Source: Saprospiraceae bacterium
GTDB lineage: Bacteria > Bacteroidota > Bacteroidia > Chitinophagales > Saprospiraceae
Assembly (NCBI GenBank): GCA_020629935.1
Contig: JAHDCJ010000006.1
Coordinates: forward strand, 34,375 to 78,916
Direction of reading: 5' to 3'
DNA: 44,542 nucleotides
The position numbers were made by a program, and so were the translations under genes. The notes under the pieces are model-generated. The model had not been told where the DNA came from. It searched no databases and saw only the letters and a program-made list of their open reading frames with translations. Numbering within the stretch: position 1 is the stretch's first letter; each line of letters opens with the position of its first letter. Of the stretch, positions 22,255 through 44,542 are shown one piece after another.

Positions 22255-23040
22255 TTATCTTAATTCTTGCTTGATACTTTGAGCGAATGCTCTAATTTGA
22301 TTGGGTAAATTCTCGTCAGTAGTAAGGGCGCGAATAAAAGCACTTCCAATAATAGCTCCTTCTGCATGCGCACAAGCGGTAGAAAAGGTAGCTCGATCAG
22401 AAATGCCAAATCCAATAATTTTTGGATTTTTTAAATTCATGGCTTCAATACGTTGGAAGTATTCCTTTTGTTGATCTGATATTCCACTAGACTTTCCGGT
22501 TATGCTATTGGAAGAAACCATATAAATAAAGCCTTCCGATGCTTCATCAATTTGTCGGATGCGTGTAGGAGAGGTTTGAGGAGTAATTAAAAGGATATTA
22601 GAAAGGTGGTATTTCTTGAAAATTTCTGCATAGTCTTCCAAATATAGATCTAATGGCAAATCAGGAAGGATTAATCCATCAATTCCAATTTCTGAAGCCT
22701 TTTTACAGAAAGCTTCTATACCATATTGATAGACTGGATTTAAATACCCCATCAAAATTAATGGAATATCTACATGGACTCGAATGTTTTTTATTTGATC
22801 AAAAAGCACCTCTAAGCTCATTCCATTATCTAGAGCTATTTTGTTACTAGCTTGTATGGTATCTCCATCCGCCACAGGGTCAGAAAAGGGCATTCCAATC
22901 TCGATCATATCAATTCCTTCCTTAGCCAATTGAGTGATCACAGGAACCGTATCTGTGAGATTAGGAAATCCTGCGGTGGTAAACACAGAGAGTATATTTT
23001 TTTTCTTTTTTCGAAATAAATCGATAATCCGATTTTCCAT
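22255..23040 (-). CDS. trpA: Tryptophan synthase alpha chain
   Basis: TrpA cleaves indole-3-glycerol phosphate to indole, which is channelled to TrpB. The 261-residue TIM barrel shows the catalytic region MIEIGMPFSDPVADGDTIQ, with the Glu (near 48) and Asp (near 59) acid-base pair. LLITPQTSPTRIRQI, YMVSSNSITG and the phosphate-binding IGFGIS plus GAIIGSAFIR complete the active site. It is the last gene of the operon, 29 bp after trpB. No clear U-tract terminator follows; the palindromic repeats upstream of hsp20 lie directly behind it. Confidence 0.97.
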   Translation of the reverse strand: MENRIIDLFRKKKKNILSVFTTAGFPNLTDTVPVITQLAKEGIDMIEIGMPFSDPVADGDTIQASNKIALDNGMSLEVLFDQIKNIRVHVDIPLILMGYLNPVYQYGIEAFCKKASEIGIDGLILPDLPLDLYLEDYAEIFKKYHLSNILLITPQTSPTRIRQIDEASEGFIYMVSSNSITGKSSGISDQQKEYFQRIEAMNLKNPKIIGFGISDRATFSTACAHAEGAIIGSAFIRALTTDENLPNQIRAFAQSIKQELR

Positions 23041-23069
23041 AAAAAGTTGATTTTAAATTATTTATATTT

Positions 23070-24251
23070 TTAATCGTCAAAATTGTAGTTCATGTATGTC
23101 CGCATGTCTTTATCGCCTCTACCTGATAAATTGATGACCACTACATCCGAAGATTCGAATTTTCGTTGATCTAAAACTGCTAATGCATGTGCCGATTCTA
23201 CCGCTGGAATAATACCTTCTAATTGACTACATAATCGTCCTGCAATCATCGCTTCTTTATCTGTTATATAATTAAAATCAGCCCTCGCAGTTTCGAACAA
23301 ATGCGCATGAACTGGACCAATGCCAGGATAATCTAAACCCGCAGAAATAGAATAAGGTTCTACTACTTGCCCGTCATTCGTTTGCATTAAAATTGTTTTG
23401 CTTCCATGCAAGATTCCTGGTTTACCTAAATGAGTAGTTGCTGCCGACTCGCCACTTTTCAATCCTAAACCCGCCGCTTCTGCAACAATCAAATTTACTT
23501 GAGGACGATCTAAGTAATGATAAAATGCTCCCATTGCATTACTTCCTCCTCCCACACAAGCAATAATATAATTCGGGTCTTCACTTCCCGTTTTTTCCAA
23601 TAATTGTTGTTTCATTTCTAAACTAATCACCGATTGAAATCGAGCGACCATATCTGGAAAAGGATGTGGTCCAACTACGGATCCAATAATATAATGCGTG
23701 TCTTCAGGATTGTTAATCCAATGACGCATTGCTTCATTGGTCGCATCTTTTAGGGTTTGACTCCCAGACGTCGCAGGTACCACTTCGGCACCTAACAAAC
23801 GCATGCGTTCTACATTGGGTTTTTGTCGATCAATATCTACGGCCCCCATATAAACAATACAAGGCATGCCCATCAAGGCACAGGCAGTCGCCGTGGCTAC
23901 TCCATGTTGTCCTGCACCCGTCTCTGCAATAATTCGTTTTTTACCTAGGCGTTTAGCTAAAATAATTTGACCTAGCGTATTGTTGATTTTATGTGCACCC
24001 GTATGATTTAAGTCTTCTCGCTTTAAATAAATTTGAGTTTGATAATGATGACTCAAACGGCTGGCAAAATACAAAGGTGATGGTCTTCCTACATAGTCTT
24101 TTAACAAAAGATCAAATTCTTGTTTAAAGGATTCGGATTCAATAATTTTTAAATATTGTTGCCGCAATTCTTCTACATTTGGATATAGCATTTCTGGAAT
24201 ATAAGCTCCTCCAAATTGACCGTAAAATCCTTTTTCATCTACTTGATACAT
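23070..24251 (-). CDS. trpB: Tryptophan synthase beta chain
   Basis: TrpB condenses indole with serine to tryptophan using pyridoxal phosphate. At 393 residues it is of normal (TrpB1) length. The PLP lysine is in [11 protein letters not shown] (near 85), the ammonium/substrate loop in [13 protein letters not shown] (near 110), and the phosphate cradle in [14 protein letters not shown] (near 230). The C-terminal segment [13 protein letters not shown] is intact. It starts 10 bp after trpF and precedes trpA by 29 bp, so the two subunits of the synthase complex are made from adjacent genes. Confidence 0.98.
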
Positions 24252-24261
24252 AGTTGTTCTT

Positions 24262-24894
24262 TTACACTAAGTTTAAAAATTCTTTGAGCATGGCTAGTTG
24301 AACAGGATCTTTTCGTCCGGGTTCAATTTCAAATTGGCTATTTACATCTACCGCATAAAGATTCATTCCTTCCAAATCTTTAATAGAATCCATATTGTTT
24401 AGGCTAATACCGCCACTTAAAATAAATGGTATTTCTTGATCGTATTTTTTTAGAACAGACCAATTAAATTGCTTGCCTGTTCCTCCGCGTGCTTTACCTT
24501 TGGTGTCAAATAAAAAATAATCGACGACGGATTTATATGGATTTAAAACGGAAAAATCAAAATGGTCATCGACAGAAAAAACTTTAAAAACTTTTAAACC
24601 ATTGCGCTTTAATTGTTGACAAAGTATGGGCGATTCTTCGCCATGTAATTGTATAGTGTCTAAATTGAAATCACGACTTTGACTTAAAATAAAATCAAAA
24701 GATTCATTAACAAAAACGCCCACTCGTTTCGTCTTTGGGTTAAGCAAAGGGAGGTGTGTGGGTTTTAGTTTTCCAATGACATTTCTTTTCGATTTTTCAA
24801 AAAAAATAAAACCTAAATAATCGGGATTTAATGCAGCAATTTGTTGAATATTTTCAGGATATAACATGCCACAAACTTTAAGCTTTAAGTCCAT
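24262..24894 (-). CDS. trpF: Phosphoribosylanthranilate isomerase
   Basis: TrpF performs the Amadori rearrangement of phosphoribosylanthranilate to CdRP. With the ATG at 24894 the protein is 210 residues and begins [10 protein letters not shown], placing the catalytic Cys of KVCGM at residue 8 as usual. The Asp partner lies in [20 protein letters not shown], and the phosphate-binding SGGISLNN loop is present. An in-frame ATG at 24966 would add 24 residues inside trpC and is rejected. The start is 2 bp after the trpC stop, so translation is probably coupled. trpC and trpF are separate genes here rather than the fused form of enterobacteria. Confidence 0.95.
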
Positions 24895-24896
24895 GT

Positions 24897-25721
24897 TTAA
24901 GCAATTAAATAATTGTCTGATTCTTCGCGCTCTAAACGATTTATTTGTTGAATAAATTTCTCGCATGCGCGTTCTGGTCGACCTTGTTTCATAAATGTTT
25001 CGCCAATCAAAAAGCCTTCAAAGCCTGCTTGTTTTAAATCTAAAATAGAACGTGGATGTGAAATTCCACTCTCTGATATTTTTACAAAATCACTAGGAAT
25101 TGTTGAAGCCAAATCTAGAGAAGTATCAATACTCACTTCAAAGGTAGTTAAGTCTCGATTATTGACTCCAACTAAATCAAGATTTGGATTGAGGTGTCCT
25201 TCAAGTTCTTTTTTATTATGTACTTCCATCAAAACTTCTAAGCCTAAACTTTGTGCAAAACGAGCAAGACTTGCAAGTCGTTTGGGTTCTAATGCGGCAG
25301 CAATTAACAATATGGCATCTGCTCCAATTGACTTCGCTTCAATAATTTGATATTCATCTAAAATAAATTCTTTACGTAAAATCGGACAAAAATTTACCTT
25401 ACGTGCTTCTTTTAAATCTTCATTACTGCCACCAAAAAAATGCTTGTCGGTCAATACAGATAATGCAGATGCCCCAGCCATCATATAACCAATTGAAGTG
25501 CGTTCTACATCTACCTTTGGATTAATTACTCCCTTAGAAGGAGATTGTCGTTTGACCTCTGCAATAATCCCAGATAAATCTTTCCGTTGAACATAACTTT
25601 TTAAGGAAAGTACATCGGTTCCAAAGTAAATACTTTGCTCCAAAAGTTTAACTGGGAAGAGCGATTTTCGTTCTTCGATTTCCTGTTTTTTATGAGCTAT
25701 AATTTTGTCAAGGATATTCAT
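24897..25721 (-). CDS. trpC: Indole-3-glycerol phosphate synthase
   Basis: TrpC closes the indole ring of CdRP to indole-3-glycerol phosphate. The 274-residue barrel shows IIAEVKRQSPSKGVI (catalytic Glu and Lys, near 52-66), VLTDKHFFGGSNEDL, ILRKEFILDEYQI (second catalytic Lys), LLIAAAL, GVNNRDLTTF and SESGI. The C-terminal helix LEREESDNYLIA is slightly longer than usual. It follows trpD by 43 bp and is nearly contiguous with trpF. Confidence 0.97.
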   Translation of the reverse strand: MNILDKIIAHKKQEIEERKSLFPVKLLEQSIYFGTDVLSLKSYVQRKDLSGIIAEVKRQSPSKGVINPKVDVERTSIGYMMAGASALSVLTDKHFFGGSNEDLKEARKVNFCPILRKEFILDEYQIIEAKSIGADAILLIAAALEPKRLASLARFAQSLGLEVLMEVHNKKELEGHLNPNLDLVGVNNRDLTTFEVSIDTSLDLASTIPSDFVKISESGISHPRSILDLKQAGFEGFLIGETFMKQGRPERACEKFIQQINRLEREESDNYLIA

Positions 25722-25764
25722 AATTCTTTATTTAATCGTTTTTTGTAGGAATGCGTTGTTTTTT

Positions 25765-26748
25765 CTATGCTAGAAAATGTTGTAATGTTTGATAAGCTTT
25801 GCCAGAAGATAAAGATTCTTTTGCTTCTCCAAGCGCTGTATCCCAACTACAAGCTTTTGCGGTTTCAATTGCTAAGGCTGCATTAGCCAAAACTACCGAA
25901 TTTTGTGCTGCATTTCCTTCTCCTTTAAGTATTTTTTGAAATAAATCTGCGGCTTCTTTAATCGTTGTTCCTCCGTAAAGGTCGCTTTGTTGTAATCGCA
26001 TAAAGCCAAGTTTTTCTGGTTCCAATAAACTTTCTTCTTCTCTGTTAATTCGTTTAAATGAACTGGTTAAAGAAATTTCATCATAGCCATCAAGTGAATG
26101 GACAATGCTAAATTGTTTATCACTTTGTTGATATAAATAGGCATAAAGTCGTGCCAATTCTAAACTAAATACACCAACCAATTGCTTCTTGACAAATGCT
26201 GGATTGACCATAGGCCCAAGCATATTGAAAAAAGTTTTAACGCCCATCTCTTTCCGAATAGGTGCTACATGTTTCATCGCAGGATGAAATAAAGGAGCAT
26301 GCAAAAAACAAATGCCCGTTTGGTCAATTGATCGTCGAATTTGATCAGGGTCATTGGTAAATTCATGTCCCATATATTGAATTACATTGGATGATCCAGA
26401 AATGGAAGAGACGCCATAGTTTCCATGTTTAGCGACTTTTACTCCAGCTCCTGCTACAATAAAAGAAGCAATTGTAGATACATTAAATGTATTTTTACCA
26501 TCGCCTCCGGTACCACATAAATCGATTGGATCAAACTCCGACAAATCAATATGAATACAAAGATCGAGCATGGCATCTCGAAAACCTTCGAGTTCTTCTA
26601 CGGTTATTCCTCGCATAATAAACACCGTTAAAAACGAAGCAATTTGTGCGGGGTTTACCGTACCACTTGCCATCTGTTTTAAAATACTTTTCGCTTGATC
26701 GCGTTGTAGATTTTTATGTTCGAATAAATGATTTAATATTGCTTTCAT
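25765..26748 (-). CDS. trpD: Anthranilate phosphoribosyltransferase
   Basis: TrpD transfers phosphoribose from PRPP to anthranilate. The 327-residue sequence carries the PRPP loop CGTGGDGKNTFNVST (near 78-92), KHGNYGVSSISGSSNVIQYMG (near 107-127) and the metal-binding DEISLTSS region (near 220). Length and order agree with the family. It starts 5 bp after trpG; TrpD and TrpG are separate rather than fused. Confidence 0.97.
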   Translation of the reverse strand: MKAILNHLFEHKNLQRDQAKSILKQMASGTVNPAQIASFLTVFIMRGITVEELEGFRDAMLDLCIHIDLSEFDPIDLCGTGGDGKNTFNVSTIASFIVAGAGVKVAKHGNYGVSSISGSSNVIQYMGHEFTNDPDQIRRSIDQTGICFLHAPLFHPAMKHVAPIRKEMGVKTFFNMLGPMVNPAFVKKQLVGVFSLELARLYAYLYQQSDKQFSIVHSLDGYDEISLTSSFKRINREEESLLEPEKLGFMRLQQSDLYGGTTIKEAADLFQKILKGEGNAAQNSVVLANAALAIETAKACSWDTALGEAKESLSSGKAYQTLQHFLA

Positions 26749-26753
26749 GGGCT

Positions 26754-27323
26754 TTATTTTAGCCAGTTGATAATTATATTTTTTCCGAAAGGAGTAAGAA
26801 TAGATTCAGGATGAAACTGTACCCCTTGCACATCATAAGTTTCATGTCGGAGCGCCATAATTTCGCCTTCATCATCCACCGCCGTAGCAATTAATTGATT
26901 GGGCAAACTGTTTTTGTCCACTACCCAAGAATGATAACGTGCAGCTTCAAATCGGGTTGGGATTCCTTCAAATAATCCTTTGGTTTCATTAAGCACGGTT
27001 TCCTTGGGAATACCATGTAAAACTTCTGGTAGATTATAAAGTTTTGCTCCGTATACTTCTCCAATGGCTTGATGCCCAAGACAAACGCCTAAGATCGATT
27101 TTGAGGCTCCAAACTGTTGAATGACTTCACAAAGAATTCCTGCTTCTTTAGGAATTCCAGGACCAGGAGAAAGTAATATTTTTTCATACTGATCTACGTC
27201 GGTCAATGTGATTTCGTCATTCCTAAATACCTCGACTTCTTGATCCAGCGCACGTAACATATGCACTAAATTATAGGTAAAGGAATCGTAATTGTCTAAT
27301 ACAAGTATAGCCTGTTTTTTCAT
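26754..27323 (-). CDS. trpG: Anthranilate synthase component II (glutamine amidotransferase)
   Basis: TrpG supplies ammonia from glutamine to TrpE. The class I amidotransferase triad is visible: Cys in ILGVCLGHQAIGE (near 80), and His/Glu in VQFHPESILTPFG (near 170). The oxyanion loop LSPGPGIPKEAG is also present. The length of 189 residues is normal for a stand-alone TrpG. It could also serve PabB, as in some bacteria, but its place between trpE (9 bp upstream) and trpD (5 bp downstream) indicates tryptophan synthesis. Confidence 0.96.
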   Translation of the reverse strand: MKKQAILVLDNYDSFTYNLVHMLRALDQEVEVFRNDEITLTDVDQYEKILLSPGPGIPKEAGILCEVIQQFGASKSILGVCLGHQAIGEVYGAKLYNLPEVLHGIPKETVLNETKGLFEGIPTRFEAARYHSWVVDKNSLPNQLIATAVDDEGEIMALRHETYDVQGVQFHPESILTPFGKNIIINWLK

Positions 27324-27332
27324 AGTTAAAAA

Positions 27333-28745
27333 TTAAAGTTGATTGGCTAATTCAATAGATTTTCGAAGCGCACGAAGTTTATGATGTACTTCTTCTAATT
27401 CTTTTTGCGGAACAGATTTGAAAACGACCCCCGCTCCTGCTTGATAGTATAGTCGATTGCCTTTGCTTAAAAAAGATCGAATCATAATGGCGTGATTAAA
27501 GTTTCCATTGAAGCCTAAAAAACCAATACAACCGCCGTAATATCCTCTATTTTCTTTTTCATAAGTATTGATTAATTCCATTGCTTTATATTTTGGCGCA
27601 CCCGATAAAGTGCCCGCAGGAAAGGTATCTCCAACGAGTTGTAGTGGTTGAGTATCCTGGATCTTTCCGTTTACTTTAGAAACCAAATGAATTAAGTGCG
27701 AAAAGAATTGTATCTCTTTCAGCGTGACCACTTCTACTTCAGATCCATGTCGACTTAAATCATTTCGTGCTAAATCGACAAGCATCATATGTTCTGCATT
27801 TTCTTTAGGATCAGCGGCTAGTTTTCTCGCTTGTTCAGCATCGGCTTCATCATCTCCAGTTCGTTTAAATGTTCCGGCAATGGGATGAATGCTTGCGACA
27901 TCATCTTGAATCACAATTTGTGCTTCTGGTGAAGAACCAAAAACCTTAAAGCTTCCCATGTCGAAATAAAATAGATAAGGAGAAGGATTTATAGAGCGTA
28001 AGGCTCGATATACATTAAATTCATCACCCCGAAAAGATTGAGAAAATCGTCTAGAAAGTACAATCTGAAATACATCACCTCTCGCACAGTGATTTTGTCC
28101 AAGGCGGATGGCTTCTAAATATTCGGCATCCGTAAAATTGGATGTTTCGTCTTCATTCGATTGAAAGTCAAAGATGCCGTTATATTGCCGATTGATAAAA
28201 CTCAAAATACGATCAATCTCACTTTCTTGTTGAGGTAAAAGATGTTCAAAAACATAAAGCTCATTGTGGAAATGATTGATCGCAATGACAAACCGATAGG
28301 CAAAGTATAAGACATCGGGAATGGCACGTTTTTCATTAGGAAAAGTATCAATGGAAATGTTTTCGTAGTAGCGAACCGCATCGTAGGATTGATAGCCAAA
28401 TAAGCCATTAGAAACAAACTTTTTTGAAGGGCCTTCTTCCACTTCAAACGATTGTGAAAAATCATATAAAAGATCGGCTAGTCGGTTGTTGGCATCCAAC
28501 TTAATTTCTTTTCTTTGTCCATCAGGAAATTCCATTTTTGCTTGTCCTTGATTGACTTCAAAACGAGCGATAGGATCACAACAGATGTACGAAAAGTTAT
28601 TTTCATTTCCATGATAATCCGAACTTTCCAATAAGATACTATTAGCGAATTGATCACGTAAGCGGAGGTAAACGCTTACTGGCGTGATGGTGTCTGCCAA
28701 TCGTTTTTTATAAATAGTACGTAAAGTTATTTTCTTCATTTTCAT
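27333..28745 (-). CDS. trpE: Anthranilate synthase component I
   Basis: TrpE with TrpG converts chorismate to anthranilate, the committed step. The 470 residues contain the N-terminal LLESSD segment (near 38-43), corresponding to the LLES tryptophan-feedback site, so end-product inhibition is expected. The chorismate-binding domain follows: GDVFQIVLSRRF, SPEAQIV, HPIAGTFKRTG, ENAEHMMLVDLARNDLSRHG, FPAGTLSGAPKYKAMELI and YYGGCIGFLG. It is the first enzyme gene of the operon and lies 75 bp after the Trp-rich leader peptide, behind an intrinsic terminator. Expression should therefore be attenuated when charged tRNA-Trp is plentiful. Confidence 0.98.
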   Translation of the reverse strand: MKMKKITLRTIYKKRLADTITPVSVYLRLRDQFANSILLESSDYHGNENNFSYICCDPIARFEVNQGQAKMEFPDGQRKEIKLDANNRLADLLYDFSQSFEVEEGPSKKFVSNGLFGYQSYDAVRYYENISIDTFPNEKRAIPDVLYFAYRFVIAINHFHNELYVFEHLLPQQESEIDRILSFINRQYNGIFDFQSNEDETSNFTDAEYLEAIRLGQNHCARGDVFQIVLSRRFSQSFRGDEFNVYRALRSINPSPYLFYFDMGSFKVFGSSPEAQIVIQDDVASIHPIAGTFKRTGDDEADAEQARKLAADPKENAEHMMLVDLARNDLSRHGSEVEVVTLKEIQFFSHLIHLVSKVNGKIQDTQPLQLVGDTFPAGTLSGAPKYKAMELINTYEKENRGYYGGCIGFLGFNGNFNHAIMIRSFLSKGNRLYYQAGAGVVFKSVPQKELEEVHHKLRALRKSIELANQL

Positions 28746-28757
28746 TATTTCAGAAAT

Positions 28758-28789
28758 AAAAAAAGGTCTGCAAACGCAGACCTTTTTTT
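28758..28789 (-). terminator. Attenuator terminator of the trp operon
   Basis: GGTCTGC and GCAGACC (28765-28771 and 28776-28782) form a GC-rich 7-bp core, extended by seven A-T pairs, with a 4-base loop and a run of U in the leftward transcript. It lies between the leader peptide stop and trpE. AAACGC at 28817-28822 of the leader can pair with GCGTTT at 28772-28777, which spans the loop and two stem bases, and would break the terminator. TGGTGGC at the Trp codons (28847-28853) can pair with GCCATTA (28812-28818) and sequester that segment. Confidence 0.9.
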
Positions 28790-28820
28790 ATATGTTTATT
28801 TCTATATAGACTAATGGCGT

Positions 28821-28880
28821 TTACTCGGATCGTAAAATCTTGTAATGCCACCACCAGTTATTGTTCATGTTGTTTTTCAT
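28821..28880 (-). CDS. trpL: trp operon leader peptide with three tandem Trp codons
   Basis: A 19-codon frame reads MKNNMNNNWWWHYKILRSE and stops. Three adjacent Trp codons in a 19-residue peptide, directly upstream of a terminator and then trpE, are the hallmark of ribosome-mediated attenuation. The ATG at 28880 is just downstream of the predicted promoter. Ribosomes short of charged tRNA-Trp would stall at codons 9-11, leaving the AAACGC segment after the stop codon free to act as antiterminator. Ribosomes reaching the stop codon would cover it and let the terminator form. The peptide itself probably has no other function. The regulatory logic is inferred from the sequence and not demonstrated. 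Confidence 0.9.
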   Translation of the reverse strand: MKNNMNNNWWWHYKILRSE

Positions 28881-28891
28881 AATTCTAGAAT

Positions 28892-28922
28892 CAAAGAAAT
28901 AAAAATCTTTGAAGAAAGTCAA
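28892..28922 (-). promoter_or_regulatory. Candidate trp operon promoter
   Basis: On the minus strand TTG (28920-28922) and TTTCTTTG (28892-28899), 20 bp apart, match the -33/-7 elements with one mismatch in the -7 box. The predicted start near 28885 leaves only about 5 bases before the leader peptide ATG. It lies between the PfkB kinase stop and trpL, so the operon need not be read from the kinase gene. Confidence 0.5.
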
Positions 28923-28937
28923 GTCAATTCAAATAAA

Positions 28938-29867
28938 TTACTTGACTAAAGATTCCATATTTACGGTCATCAACTTTTCGAAGGTACGAATTCGATCATT
29001 GATATCATCAATACTTAAACTCTTGATTTTTTCAATTCCAAATTTTTCTACGGTACAAGATGCTAAGGCAGAACCATAAACGACAGCACGTTTCATATTT
29101 TCAAAAGAAAGATCATCTGTACTTGCTAAGTAGCCAATAAAACCACCCGCAAAGGTATCTCCTGCTCCTGTTGGATCAAATACTTGTTCTAGCGGTAAAG
29201 CAGGTGCAAAGAAAATTTCTTCTCCGTGGAAAAGTAAAGCGCCATGTTCTCCTTTTTTAATCACTAAATATTTAGGACCCATTTCACGAATTACCCGTGC
29301 GGCTTTTACCAAAGAGTGTTCTCCTGAAAGTTGTCTTGCTTCTTCGTCATTAATGGTAAGGACATCAATTTTCTTGATTACTGCTTTTAAATCATCTAAA
29401 GCAATATCCATCCAGAAGTTCATGGTGTCGAGTACAATCAATTTGGGTTTTACAGTCAATTGTTCGATCACTTTCATTTGAATAGAAGGGGTTAAATTCC
29501 CTAACATGATGTATTGGCTATCTTTATAAGAATCTGGTAATACAGGATCAAAATCAGCTAAAACATTCAATTCAGTAGCTAGGGTATCTCTACCATTCAT
29601 GTTTTCATGATATTTCCCTGCCCAAAAGAAAGATTTCTCTCCTTCTTTAATTTGCAAGCCATCTAGGTTGATACCTTGTGAACGCATCGCATCCAACTCA
29701 AATTGAGGAAAATCATCTCCTACTACAGCAACTAGACGAATGTCTTTGTGGAAGTATGAAGCGGCCCAAGAAATATAGGTACAAGCACCGCCAACAATAC
29801 GGTCTGCTTTTCCAAAAGGGGTTTCGATAGAATCAAAGGCAACAGTGCCTACAGTTAAAATACTCAT
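28938..29867 (-). CDS. PfkB family carbohydrate kinase
   Basis: A 309-residue cytosolic sugar/nucleoside kinase of the PfkB (ribokinase) family. Family features are the N-terminal strand and GGACTYISWAASYF (substrate lid and Gly-Gly pair near 27), LVAVVGDDFP, DTMNFWMD, LTINDEEARQL, YLVIKKGEHGALLF and the C-terminal signature DPTGAGDTFAGGFIGYL with catalytic Asp near 237. Substrate cannot be fixed from sequence; ribokinase- or adenosine-kinase-like specificity are both possible. It has a CATCTTTG -7-like box 10-20 bp before the ATG. It lies upstream of the trp operon in the same direction, separated by the trp promoter. Confidence 0.9.
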   Translation of the reverse strand: MSILTVGTVAFDSIETPFGKADRIVGGACTYISWAASYFHKDIRLVAVVGDDFPQFELDAMRSQGINLDGLQIKEGEKSFFWAGKYHENMNGRDTLATELNVLADFDPVLPDSYKDSQYIMLGNLTPSIQMKVIEQLTVKPKLIVLDTMNFWMDIALDDLKAVIKKIDVLTINDEEARQLSGEHSLVKAARVIREMGPKYLVIKKGEHGALLFHGEEIFFAPALPLEQVFDPTGAGDTFAGGFIGYLASTDDLSFENMKRAVVYGSALASCTVEKFGIEKIKSLSIDDINDRIRTFEKLMTVNMESLVK

Positions 29868-40947: not shown

Positions 40948-43900
40948 TTATTTAATTAATGTGATATCTCCTTTGTATTGAATAACTACACCATCTACAA
41001 ATTCTACTTCGGCATAATAAACAAAGACAGCAGGATTCATTTCTTTACCTTTTAATGTTCCATCCCAACCAAAAGCAGGATCATCCGTTTGGAAATCAAA
41101 AGCTTCAAACATTTGCTCTCCCCAACGATCAAAGATTTTGAAAGCCTGTACTCTCGCTACTCCAATATCTCCAAAGATCATAATGACATCATTGTTTCCA
41201 TCTCCGTTTGGTGTAAATGCATTAGGAATAAATACATTTCGATCTTTACCAACAAAGACGGTGATTTCATCCATAGTCATACATCCCGTTTCGTTAATGA
41301 TAGTCACAGAATAAGTGGTCGTCTCTAAAGGAGCTGCTGTTGGGTTTGGACAATCCTCACAACTTAACCCTTCTACTGGAGTCCATATATAACTTAAAGA
41401 ATCTGAACTGTTGGTTTCTGCAAATAATTCTACAGATTCACCAAGGCTAATTTCTACATTCACCCCTAAATCAACCATTAATTCAAATGGCTCTTCGATG
41501 TTAACGGACTGTGTCCATTCACAACCTAATACATCTTGAACAGTTAACTCGTAAGCTCCGCCTGCTAAACCATTAAATACATTACTTGCGGTAAAGTTTT
41601 CGCCATCTACAGAATATACATAAGGTGGCGTTCCTCCAAATGTACTATCAATGACAATACTTCCATTAATATCTCCAAAACAAGTAACTCCATTTGTTGT
41701 CCAGAAAGGAAGAATTGGGTCAGGTTGACCAAGTACGATGGTTTCTACATGTACACATCCGTTTTGATCCGTAATACTTACACTATGAATTCCTGCAACT
41801 AAATTAAATGCATCTGGACCATTATCTCCATTACTCCATTCGTAACTATAATCTGGAATTCCTCCGTCTGCCACCGCAGAAGCTGTTCCATCTGATCCAC
41901 CAAAACAAGAAACATCTGTTCCTGATAAAATGGCAGTTATTGCCGTAGGCTCTGTAAAGTTAAAGTTACCAGAAATGGCAGTACAACCATTGGCATCGGT
42001 TACCGTAGCATTATAAGAACCCGCAGTTAATCCAGTAGCCACATCGGTATTATTACCATTTGACCAAGCATAGGTATAGGGAGGCGTTCCTCCAATCACA
42101 GCTACTGCCGCACTTCCTCCATTACCACCATTACATAAGATCGATCCACTCAATGGCGAATCACCGAATTGTAGTTGACTAGGTTCATTAACCGTAATAG
42201 ATTCCATAGCAATACAACCATTGTTATCGGTAACGGTTACAGCGTGAATTCCAGCATCAAAATTTAAGGCTACATCAGTAATCGAACCATTATCCCATAA
42301 ATAACTATAAGGAGGTGTTCCGCCTACAGGAACTACAGTAATTGTTCCGTCATTTCCTCCAAAACAACTTACATTAGTTGGACTTAAACTTAAACTGATA
42401 TTAGTAGGTTGTCCAACGGTTGCATTTCCTAAAATAGTACAACCATTGGCATCGGTTACGGTAACGTCATAAGTTCCAATGCCCAAATTATTTTGACTTG
42501 CAGTTGTTTCTCCATTGTCCCATAAGAAGGTATAACCTGGTGTTCCTCCAGAAGGATTAGCGGTTACAGTTCCCATTGCCGAACCATTACAGTCGGTGTC
42601 GGTTGCGGTAACAGAAAGGCCAAGTGCTGAAGGTTCTGTAAGTGTAATTGAATTGGTAATTGAACAACCATTGGTATCTGTAATGGTTACTTCATGTGTT
42701 CCTACAGGCAAGTTCAATGCTGTGGGTGCTAAATCTCCATTGCTCCATAAGTATGTATAAGAAGGTGTTCCTCCAACAGCAACTACGGTAGCCGTTCCAT
42801 CACTTCCTCCATTACAACTTACATCCGTTCCACTTATGGTTGAACTTACTGGAGCTGTTGGTCCACCAACAGTTAATGTAGCAGCAGGATTTAACGTACA
42901 ACCATTGGCATCAATGATGGCTACATCATAAGTTCCAGCGGTAAGTCCAGTTGCTGTAACTGCCGTTTGGCCATTTGACCAAACAAAAACATAAGGAGCT
43001 GTTCCTCCTGTGGCATTAGCGGTTGCCGTACCATCGCTTCCTCCAAAACAACTAGTAGGAGTAGTTGATAATCCAGTAGGCAGTAAAATATTAGGAGTTC
43101 CAATATTGACAGATCCTGTAATCGTACAACCATTGGCATCAGTTACAGTCAAGTCATGATTACCTGCGGTTAAAAATTGAGCAGGATTCGATAATTCGCT
43201 ATTATCCCAAAGAAAAGAATAAGGAGCTGTACCTCCTGTTACCGTAGCAGTGGCTGTCCCGTTTGCATCTCCAAAACAGTTTACGTCTGTACCTACAATA
43301 CTTAATCCCATGCTTAATGGCTCATTAATCGTAATATTATCTACAATTTGACAACCATTATTATCTGTTACCGTTAAGATATAATTTCCAGCAGCTAAAG
43401 AAGCTATGTCTTCTGTAGTTTCGGTATTACTCCAAGCATAGGTATAAGGAGCAGTTCCATTAGTTATAGTAGCATCAATACTACCATCTGAGGCAGCATT
43501 ACAAGAAAGATCAGAACCGACAAGCACCAGTGTTAATGCATTGGGCTCTGTGATTGTTGTAGTTCCCGCAGTAATACATCCATCGATGTCAGATACAGTA
43601 ACATTATAACTTCCAACACAAAGGCCTGTTGCGGTTACAGTCGTTTGAGAACCCGCTGCAGCATCCCATTGGTATGTATAAGGAGCCTGTCCGCCACTAA
43701 TTGTTAACGTAGCAACTCCATCACAAACACCTTGGCAACTTGCTTGGGCATCGATATTAATATTATCAATAGAAAGTGTACTTATATTTCCAATCAAAAC
43801 AGTAGCGGTATTACTACATCCATTATTGTCTGTTACGGTAACGACATTATTTCCAGCACAAAGATCAATTGGATCTTCGTCCGTACTACCATTTGTCCAA

Positions 43901-44542
43901 AGGAAAGTATAAGGCGCAGTTCCGCCTGCGGCAGTAATTGTAGCGCCTCCATCACAACTACTACAATTTGAATCACTATTACTATCTATTGAAATAGTAA
44001 TTCCAGTAGGTTCATTGATGTTGATTGATGAGGTTGTTGTACAGCTATTGTTGTCTGTAATGGTTATGGTATGTGTTCCTGCATCTAAGTTTGTTGCAGT
44101 TGTTGTATTTTCTGTGTTATCCCAAACAATTGAATAAGGTGCAGTACCTCCATTGATCGTAACAGTAGCAGAACCATCGCTACCTCCATTACAACTTACG
44201 TCATTATCAAGAGCAGTAATTGCGGTTAATAAAGCGGGTTCATTAATCACTGTGCTACCTCCTACAATACAACCGTCTGCATCAGTTACCGTCAAGTCAA
44301 TATTTCCACCACTTAGTCCTGTTGCTATAGCATCAGTTTGACCATTTGACCAAATAAAAGCATAAGGAGCTTGTCCTCCACTTACAGAAGCGGAAGCTTG
44401 TCCGTCCGCATCGCCATTACAAGTAACATCATTGTCGGTGGTGATATTATCCAAAACTAAAGAGGAAGTATTTCCAACATTAGCAATTAATGTATTGGTA
44501 CAACCATTAGCATCCGTAACCGTTACTGTATTATTTCCAGAA
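40948..44542 (-). CDS. SprB-repeat surface protein with type B T9SS sorting domain, partial
   Basis: The visible C-terminal 1197 residues are a row of 13 SprB repeats plus part of another, each about 75-80 residues with the pattern vsCfGgsDGtatv...GGtaPYty.WsnG...aGtytvtvtDanGCt. SprB repeats build the long adhesin filaments of gliding Bacteroidota and other secreted surface proteins. After the repeats come a beta domain (LSYIWTPVEGLSCEDCPNPTA) and the gliding-motility-associated C-terminal sorting domain (VFIPNAFTPNGDGNND, FKIFDRWGEQMFE, VFVYYAEVEF, YKGDITLIK), so it should leave through the type IX secretion system. The frame is open at the right window edge; the apparent start inside it is a TTG for Leu, not a true start. 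Its terminator is shared in position with the convergent M43 gene. Confidence 0.93.
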   Translation of the reverse strand, partial: SGNNTVTVTDANGCTNTLIANVGNTSSLVLDNITTDNDVTCNGDADGQASASVSGGQAPYAFIWSNGQTDAIATGLSGGNIDLTVTDADGCIVGGSTVINEPALLTAITALDNDVSCNGGSDGSATVTINGGTAPYSIVWDNTENTTTATNLDAGTHTITITDNNSCTTTSSININEPTGITISIDSNSDSNCSSCDGGATITAAGGTAPYTFLWTNGSTDEDPIDLCAGNNVVTVTDNNGCSNTATVLIGNISTLSIDNINIDAQASCQGVCDGVATLTISGGQAPYTYQWDAAAGSQTTVTATGLCVGSYNVTVSDIDGCITAGTTTITEPNALTLVLVGSDLSCNAASDGSIDATITNGTAPYTYAWSNTETTEDIASLAAGNYILTVTDNNGCQIVDNITINEPLSMGLSIVGTDVNCFGDANGTATATVTGGTAPYSFLWDNSELSNPAQFLTAGNHDLTVTDANGCTITGSVNIGTPNILLPTGLSTTPTSCFGGSDGTATANATGGTAPYVFVWSNGQTAVTATGLTAGTYDVAIIDANGCTLNPAATLTVGGPTAPVSSTISGTDVSCNGGSDGTATVVAVGGTPSYTYLWSNGDLAPTALNLPVGTHEVTITDTNGCSITNSITLTEPSALGLSVTATDTDCNGSAMGTVTANPSGGTPGYTFLWDNGETTASQNNLGIGTYDVTVTDANGCTILGNATVGQPTNISLSLSPTNVSCFGGNDGTITVVPVGGTPPYSYLWDNGSITDVALNFDAGIHAVTVTDNNGCIAMESITVNEPSQLQFGDSPLSGSILCNGGNGGSAAVAVIGGTPPYTYAWSNGNNTDVATGLTAGSYNATVTDANGCTAISGNFNFTEPTAITAILSGTDVSCFGGSDGTASAVADGGIPDYSYEWSNGDNGPDAFNLVAGIHSVSITDQNGCVHVETIVLGQPDPILPFWTTNGVTCFGDINGSIVIDSTFGGTPPYVYSVDGENFTASNVFNGLAGGAYELTVQDVLGCEWTQSVNIEEPFELMVDLGVNVEISLGESVELFAETNSSDSLSYIWTPVEGLSCEDCPNPTAAPLETTTYSVTIINETGCMTMDEITVFVGKDRNVFIPNAFTPNGDGNNDVIMIFGDIGVARVQAFKIFDRWGEQMFEAFDFQTDDPAFGWDGTLKGKEMNPAVFVYYAEVEFVDGVVIQYKGDITLIK

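Follow-up and report, generated by a model that had tools for sequence, protein, structure and literature searches.

The arm geometry of the Escherichia coli trp leader is well established, and Lopatovskaya is said to have given, in 2010, a possibly earlier list of attenuators in Bacteroidetes. A trp switch of this phylum is already known as the Rfam family RF01692 (Bacteroid-trp), the 'Bacteroidete tryptophan peptide leader RNA', which was listed in 2010 (Weinberg et al., 2010; PMC2864571). In 2019, the Bacteroid-Trp RNA was named as conserved upstream of the F. psychrophilum trp operon (PMC6414381), and a 2021 transcriptome of F. psychrophilum gave 'strong clues' for leader peptide attenuation of amino-acid operons (PMC9723704). 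The main-text passages found in these two papers, which deal with another family of the phylum, describe no antiterminator arm and no covariation test.

The window analyzed here is a stretch of 44,542 nucleotides from a Saprospiraceae bacterium, and it carries a trp operon on its minus strand (Table 1). The nearest relatives of its TrpE were Saprospiraceae, with 66–67% identity. A first-pass annotation, made from the letters of the window, had placed a 19-codon leader with three consecutive Trp codons and a terminator in front of the operon and an LLES motif in TrpE. All of these were recovered by direct reading: the leader ORF, which begins 57 bases past the stop codon of a PfkB-family kinase gene, the terminator hairpin GGTCTGC-gttt-GCAGACC (28765–28782, with A and T tracts at its flanks), and the motif, which appears as SILLESSDY. 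Elsewhere in the window, the minus strand at 40948–44454 encodes a protein of 1168 amino acids in which 12 SprB repeats are combined with a type IX secretion signal domain. We read the element before trpE, with a probability of about 0.92, as a divergent Bacteroid-trp leader that controls the trp operon by ribosome-mediated transcription attenuation. The first-pass annotation had favored the same ribosome-mediated reading, which gained support from conservation, from pairing with the own terminator and from folding with ribosome footprints.

Table 1. Features of the trp leader region in the window, with the evidence for each.
Feature	Position	Strand	Evidence or remark
PfkB-family kinase gene	end at 28938	minus	upstream of the leader ORF
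Probable −7 promoter box TTTCTTTG (consensus TAnnTTTG, one mismatch)	28892–28899	minus	sequence and consensus
Leader peptide ORF MKNNMNNNWWWHYKILRSE plus TAA, 19 codons	28821–28880	minus	sequence; tandem-Trp short ORF kept before trpE in relatives
Arm 1 ACUGGUGGUG, partner of arm 1′	28849–28858	minus	RNAfold
Three tandem Trp codons, proposed stalling site	28848–28856	minus	sequence; three Trp codons in 106/118 leaders
Arm 2 GUAAACGC, antiterminator strand, leader stop codon inside	28817–28824	minus	pairing and folding
Arm 1′ CGCCAUUAGU, 3-nt overlap with the 3′ end of arm 2	28810–28819	minus	RNAfold, sequence
Intrinsic terminator AAAAAAAGGTCTGC-gttt-GCAGACCTTTTTTT, A and T tracts included	28758–28789	minus	sequence, fold
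Arm 3 GCGUUUGC, apical terminator part, partner of arm 2	28770–28777	minus	self versus non-self test, folding
trpE, anthranilate synthase component I, LLES motif	27333–28745	minus	direct reading, gene annotation
trpG, trpD, trpC, trpF, trpB, trpA	22255–27323	minus	downstream of trpE

In a permissive scan, RF01692 matched the window over its full length (1–131) with 42.4 bits and an E-value of 0.0003–0.0006 for the short stretch searched, and it was the best of 4227 Rfam families by 16 bits. A scan at the gathering thresholds gave no match at the leader, where the score of 42.4 bits lies below the curated score of 49 for RF01692, and therefore ordinary annotation misses this leader. The 1:1′ hairpin that the family consensus places on the Trp codons was found in the window by alignment to the model and by an independent fold. 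The context also agreed with that of the family, namely a Trp-rich leader ORF that precedes trp biosynthesis genes of Bacteroidota, and tandem Trp codons within the leader ORF are shared with the ribosome-mediated trp attenuators of the E. coli type. The proteobacterial Rfam family Trp_leader gave no match to the window up to an E-value of 10, and no sequence relation to E. coli trpL was detected. When 38 related loci were tested, the RF01692 gathering score was passed by 10 of 13 loci from Flavobacteriaceae, by one of 16 from Saprospiraceae and by no locus among the 9 others; the curated model misses nearly all members tested outside Flavobacteriaceae.

The fold of the 136-nt leader reached −38 kcal/mol vs. 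−18.8 kcal/mol in shuffled sequences (z −6.6), and none of 200 shuffles was as good. The pairing of TGGTGGC (28847–28853) with GCCATTA (28812–28818), proposed in the first-pass annotation, was confirmed in position and pairing on the minus strand; in the RNAfold minimum-energy fold it amounted to 10 bp, ACUGGUGGUG:CGCCAUUAGU, closed over UUAC:GUAA. An A-rich spacer lies between GCCATTA and the terminator. The proposed antiterminator AAACGC/GCGTTT proved real, but its length had been put too low at 6–7 bp: two extra pairs bring GUAAACGC:GCGUUUGC to 8 bp, one G-U among them. Arm 3 covers the 4-nt loop of the terminator together with 2 nt on each side, from the 5′ and the 3′ arm, and arm 2 straddles the loop symmetrically (GC-GUUU-GC). 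The likeness to the 1:2, 2:3, 3:4 logic of E. coli, which had also been claimed, held for the exclusive pairings but not for the target of arm 2, which is the terminator loop with its flanks, correctly noted in the first-pass annotation, rather than the 5′ arm.

The states of the ribosome were mimicked by removing the RNA in its footprint, and in the stalled state also the RNA before the ribosome; the folds were made without pseudoknots. In free RNA, the probability was about 0.88–0.89 for the 1:2 pairing and 0.97 for the terminator, and with a ribosome at the leader stop codon the terminator again reached 0.97. With a ribosome stalled on the Trp codons and 4 nt of the terminator 3′ arm free, the 2:3 pairing had a probability of 0.98 and the terminator one of 0.02. 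A Flavobacteriaceae leader (L013) folded in the same way as the window in all three states. Another leader (L110) agreed with the model in the stalled and stop-codon states, and its free RNA preferred the antiterminator. In silico, the 1:2, 2:3 and 3:4 pairings were mutually exclusive and were chosen by the position of the ribosome. At equilibrium the terminator won when 6–8 nt of its 3′ arm were free (window and L013), which indicated that the switch must be kinetic.

We infer ribosome stalling, a response to tryptophan and kinetic competition at the trp leader. If charged tRNA-Trp is sufficient, the ribosome would reach the leader stop codon and cover arm 2; alternatively, it would depart and arm 1 would pair with arm 1′. 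The terminator would then form, and transcription would stop before trpE. If charged tRNA-Trp is short, the ribosome would stall on the Trp codons, covering arm 1 and leaving arm 2 free ~20 nt downstream. The free arm 2 would pair with the apex of the terminator while the latter is still emerging and its 3′ arm is incomplete, and with this antiterminator formed, RNA polymerase would continue into trpE.

The pairing of arm 2 with arm 3 co-varies. For each leader, the stretch 6–36 nt past the last Trp codon was scored by its best helix with the apical part of its own terminator and with that of every other species. This self versus non-self permutation test was used in place of a per-column covariation count because spacer lengths vary. 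Own pairs averaged −14.7 kcal/mol vs. −11.1 for foreign pairs in Saprospiraceae (n = 24) and −14.4 vs. −10.4 kcal/mol in all non-Flavobacteriaceae (n = 46), and in neither set did any of 20,000 permutations do as well. Independence of the loci is assumed in this test although they are related; close kin improve the foreign pairs, so the bias opposes the result. In Flavobacteriaceae, arm 2 and its target were nearly invariant (UCGUGAA:UUCACGA and close forms), and there was no covariation signal within the group. Pairing was poor between Flavobacteriaceae arms and Saprospiraceae terminators (−8.3) and in the opposite combination (−9.1). The arm 1:1′ pairing was clearly better than in shuffled sequences in Saprospiraceae (22/24) and weakly so elsewhere.

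The median distance from the last Trp codon to the start of arm 2 was 18 nt in Flavobacteriaceae (sd 0.8) and 19 nt in Saprospiraceae (sd 2.6). Overall, this interval came to 17–19 nt irrespective of the reading frame. The leader stop codon, by comparison, wandered by at least 20 nt relative to arm 2, from well before to well after it and in any frame. Since arm 2 stays at a fixed distance from the Trp codons while the stop codon shifts, the element is kept as RNA and not as coding sequence. The length of the ribosome footprint is well established, and a fixed spacing between codons and arm is what a footprint on the Trp codons would require in order to leave arm 2 free.

The target of arm 2 differed between families. 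It was the loop plus the first bases of the 3′ arm in 18 of 24 Saprospiraceae and 67 of 72 Flavobacteriaceae, and the 5′ arm, as in E. coli, in the four analyzed loci of a sister family of the same order and in 10 of 18 other loci. The loop target leaves a lower stem of 6–8 bp able to pair in those 85 of 96 Saprospiraceae and Flavobacteriaceae leaders, and this would allow the leader to work via a pseudoknot, with arm 2 bound to the terminator loop on an intact lower stem and termination altered without replacement of the hairpin. However, the target in the window spans both sides of the loop and leaves a stem of only 5 G+C-rich bp plus A-U pairs, and a common antiterminator role is simpler when arm 2 of other families often takes the 5′ arm. 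We therefore consider a pseudoknot mechanism very unlikely, and keep to replacement of the hairpin by an antiterminator.

The DNA upstream of trpE was collected from 80 named genome contigs and 30 same-family loci, which gave 107 non-redundant loci from Saprospiraceae and Flavobacteriaceae and one from Cytophagales among them. In 106 of the 107, trpE was preceded by a short ORF whose Trp codons are clustered and almost always tandem, usually in the motif N-T-W-W-W or H-T-W-W-W. Relatives that keep the trp genes and lack the Trp codons or the terminator were sought, and this search left the attenuation reading standing. The first search pass found the leader ORF in all but seven loci. Absence in six of them (L024, L049, L057, L073, L098, and L100) was rejected, as the leader sits farther upstream. 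In the seventh (L085), a terminator was present before trpE and no Trp-rich ORF was found upstream of it; this genome is incomplete (64%), and loss and sequence error are indistinguishable there. In a wider sample inspected by eye, a leader with two or three clustered Trp codons was seen in all 20 loci of the same order and class, and among 20 loci representing other classes of the phylum about half had such a leader.

A small GIY-YIG nuclease-like ORF lay between leader and trpE in four of the six loci with distant leaders (L024, L049, L057, and L073, all Flavobacteriaceae), and the copy in L049 matched PF01541 in Pfam (E 1e-16). The ORF looks like a mobile insertion, and from its place between attenuator and trpE it would fall under tryptophan control.

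The genome-wide promoter consensus reported for F. psychrophilum is TAnnTTTG, with the box at −12 to −5 (PMC9723704). In 94 of 118 leaders an exact match stood no more than 45 nt before the leader ATG, compared with 19 of 609 control windows. In the window, a TTG lies about 19 nt upstream of the box TTTCTTTG, and transcription is predicted to start near 28887, 7 nt before the leader ATG; the 5′ untranslated region expected is about 7 nt, from a box with one mismatch. In 43 of the 94 leaders the box ends 4–10 nt before the ATG (e.g., L037, L028, and L010), and an untranslated region of 0–6 nt is expected. Judging from the motifs and the nearest ATG, translation of the trp leader peptide is predicted to be near-leaderless. 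The mRNAs of this phylum lack Shine-Dalgarno sequences, as stated for Flavobacterium, and genome-wide leaderless mRNAs made up only 5.5% in F. psychrophilum (PMC9723704).

These data also bear on the idea that the terminator merely closes the PfkB-family kinase gene at its 3′ end and that the Trp-rich ORF is a coincidence. That gene does end just upstream on the same strand, and the terminator could also stop its transcript. Yet the tandem-Trp leader recurs before trpE across families, complementarity is greater in own pairs than in non-self pairs, and the promoter motif stands directly before the leader in most relatives. The idea is highly improbable, being already contradicted by conservation.

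Similar leaders stand before other operons as well. Upstream of hisG (contig C71) in the same genome lies a His leader (MSQTIKHHHHNFLYFPKR) with a terminator, and upstream of ilvD (contig C27:4100–5000) an Ile/Val-rich leader (MRQHSLNIISIIIIIVINTQ) with a terminator. The first part of the ilvD leader occurs twice, on either side of a run of N, and the duplication is probably a scaffolding artefact. A His-run leader with a terminator preceded hisG in 22 of 30 Saprospiraceae loci, this genome included. The his leaders often carry an arm complementary to the terminator loop, of the type GGCAAAUGGU:ACCAUUUGCC, and across a set of 21 of these loci the leader arm preferred its own terminator (−14.8 vs. 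−11.5; none of 20,000 permutations as good). No leader was seen before thrA and pheA of the same genome in the stretches read, of which the one upstream of pheA extends only about 70 nt to the contig end. A genome-wide pattern scan for TGGTGGTGG gave matches too frequent to be informative. That control lies mainly with a tryptophan-binding protein or a riboswitch, the leader being a relic, is hardly credible, given that the window had no other regulatory RNA match at curated thresholds, that 106 of 118 leaders retain the three tandem Trp codons, unexpected of a relic, and that His-run and Ile/Val-run leaders stand before hisG and ilvD in the same genome.

The trp leader is a genuine attenuator and a divergent, so far unannotated member of a known family, and much of Bacteroidota uses the classical coupling between translation and the termination of transcription. 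Arm 2 is nearly fixed relative to the regulatory codons and not to the stop codon, while its target in the terminator varies between families. The fixed spacing and the family-specific target can be used for computational attenuator finding, and they make the role of ribosome spacing testable. We tentatively suggest, at slightly less than even odds, that the amino-acid attenuators of Saprospiraceae and Flavobacteriaceae have a distinct geometry, in which a short arm at a fixed distance from the regulatory codons, often over the leader stop codon, invades the apical loop of the terminator and blocks nucleation of the hairpin instead of sequestering its 5′ arm. This geometry would recur in the his leaders, would apparently give way to the E. 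coli type in other families, and would often go with a peptide made from a near-leaderless transcript.

Compared with the Rfam model, the antiterminator arm, the invasion of the terminator loop, the conservation outside Flavobacteriaceae, the similar his leaders and the predicted near-leaderless translation are additions. Neither that model nor the passages of main text that were searched contained a loop-invading antiterminator, a fixed codon-to-arm spacing or a probable near-leaderless translation. Like the window, RF01692 has a Trp-codon leader before Bacteroidota trp genes, the 1:1′ hairpin, a downstream A-rich stretch and the terminator 5′ arm. Unlike the window, the model holds only the 1:1′ hairpin and ends inside the 5′ arm, with neither terminator pairs nor an arm 2:arm 3 pairing. 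With the E. coli trp leader, the window shares a short ORF with Trp codons, three exclusive pairings, a terminator before trpE and the logic of stalling. The two differ in that the window has three Trp codons and E. coli trpL two, arm 2 of the window contains the leader stop codon, which in E. coli comes before arm 2, and arm 2 invades the terminator loop in the window, whereas in E. coli it pairs with the terminator 5′ arm.
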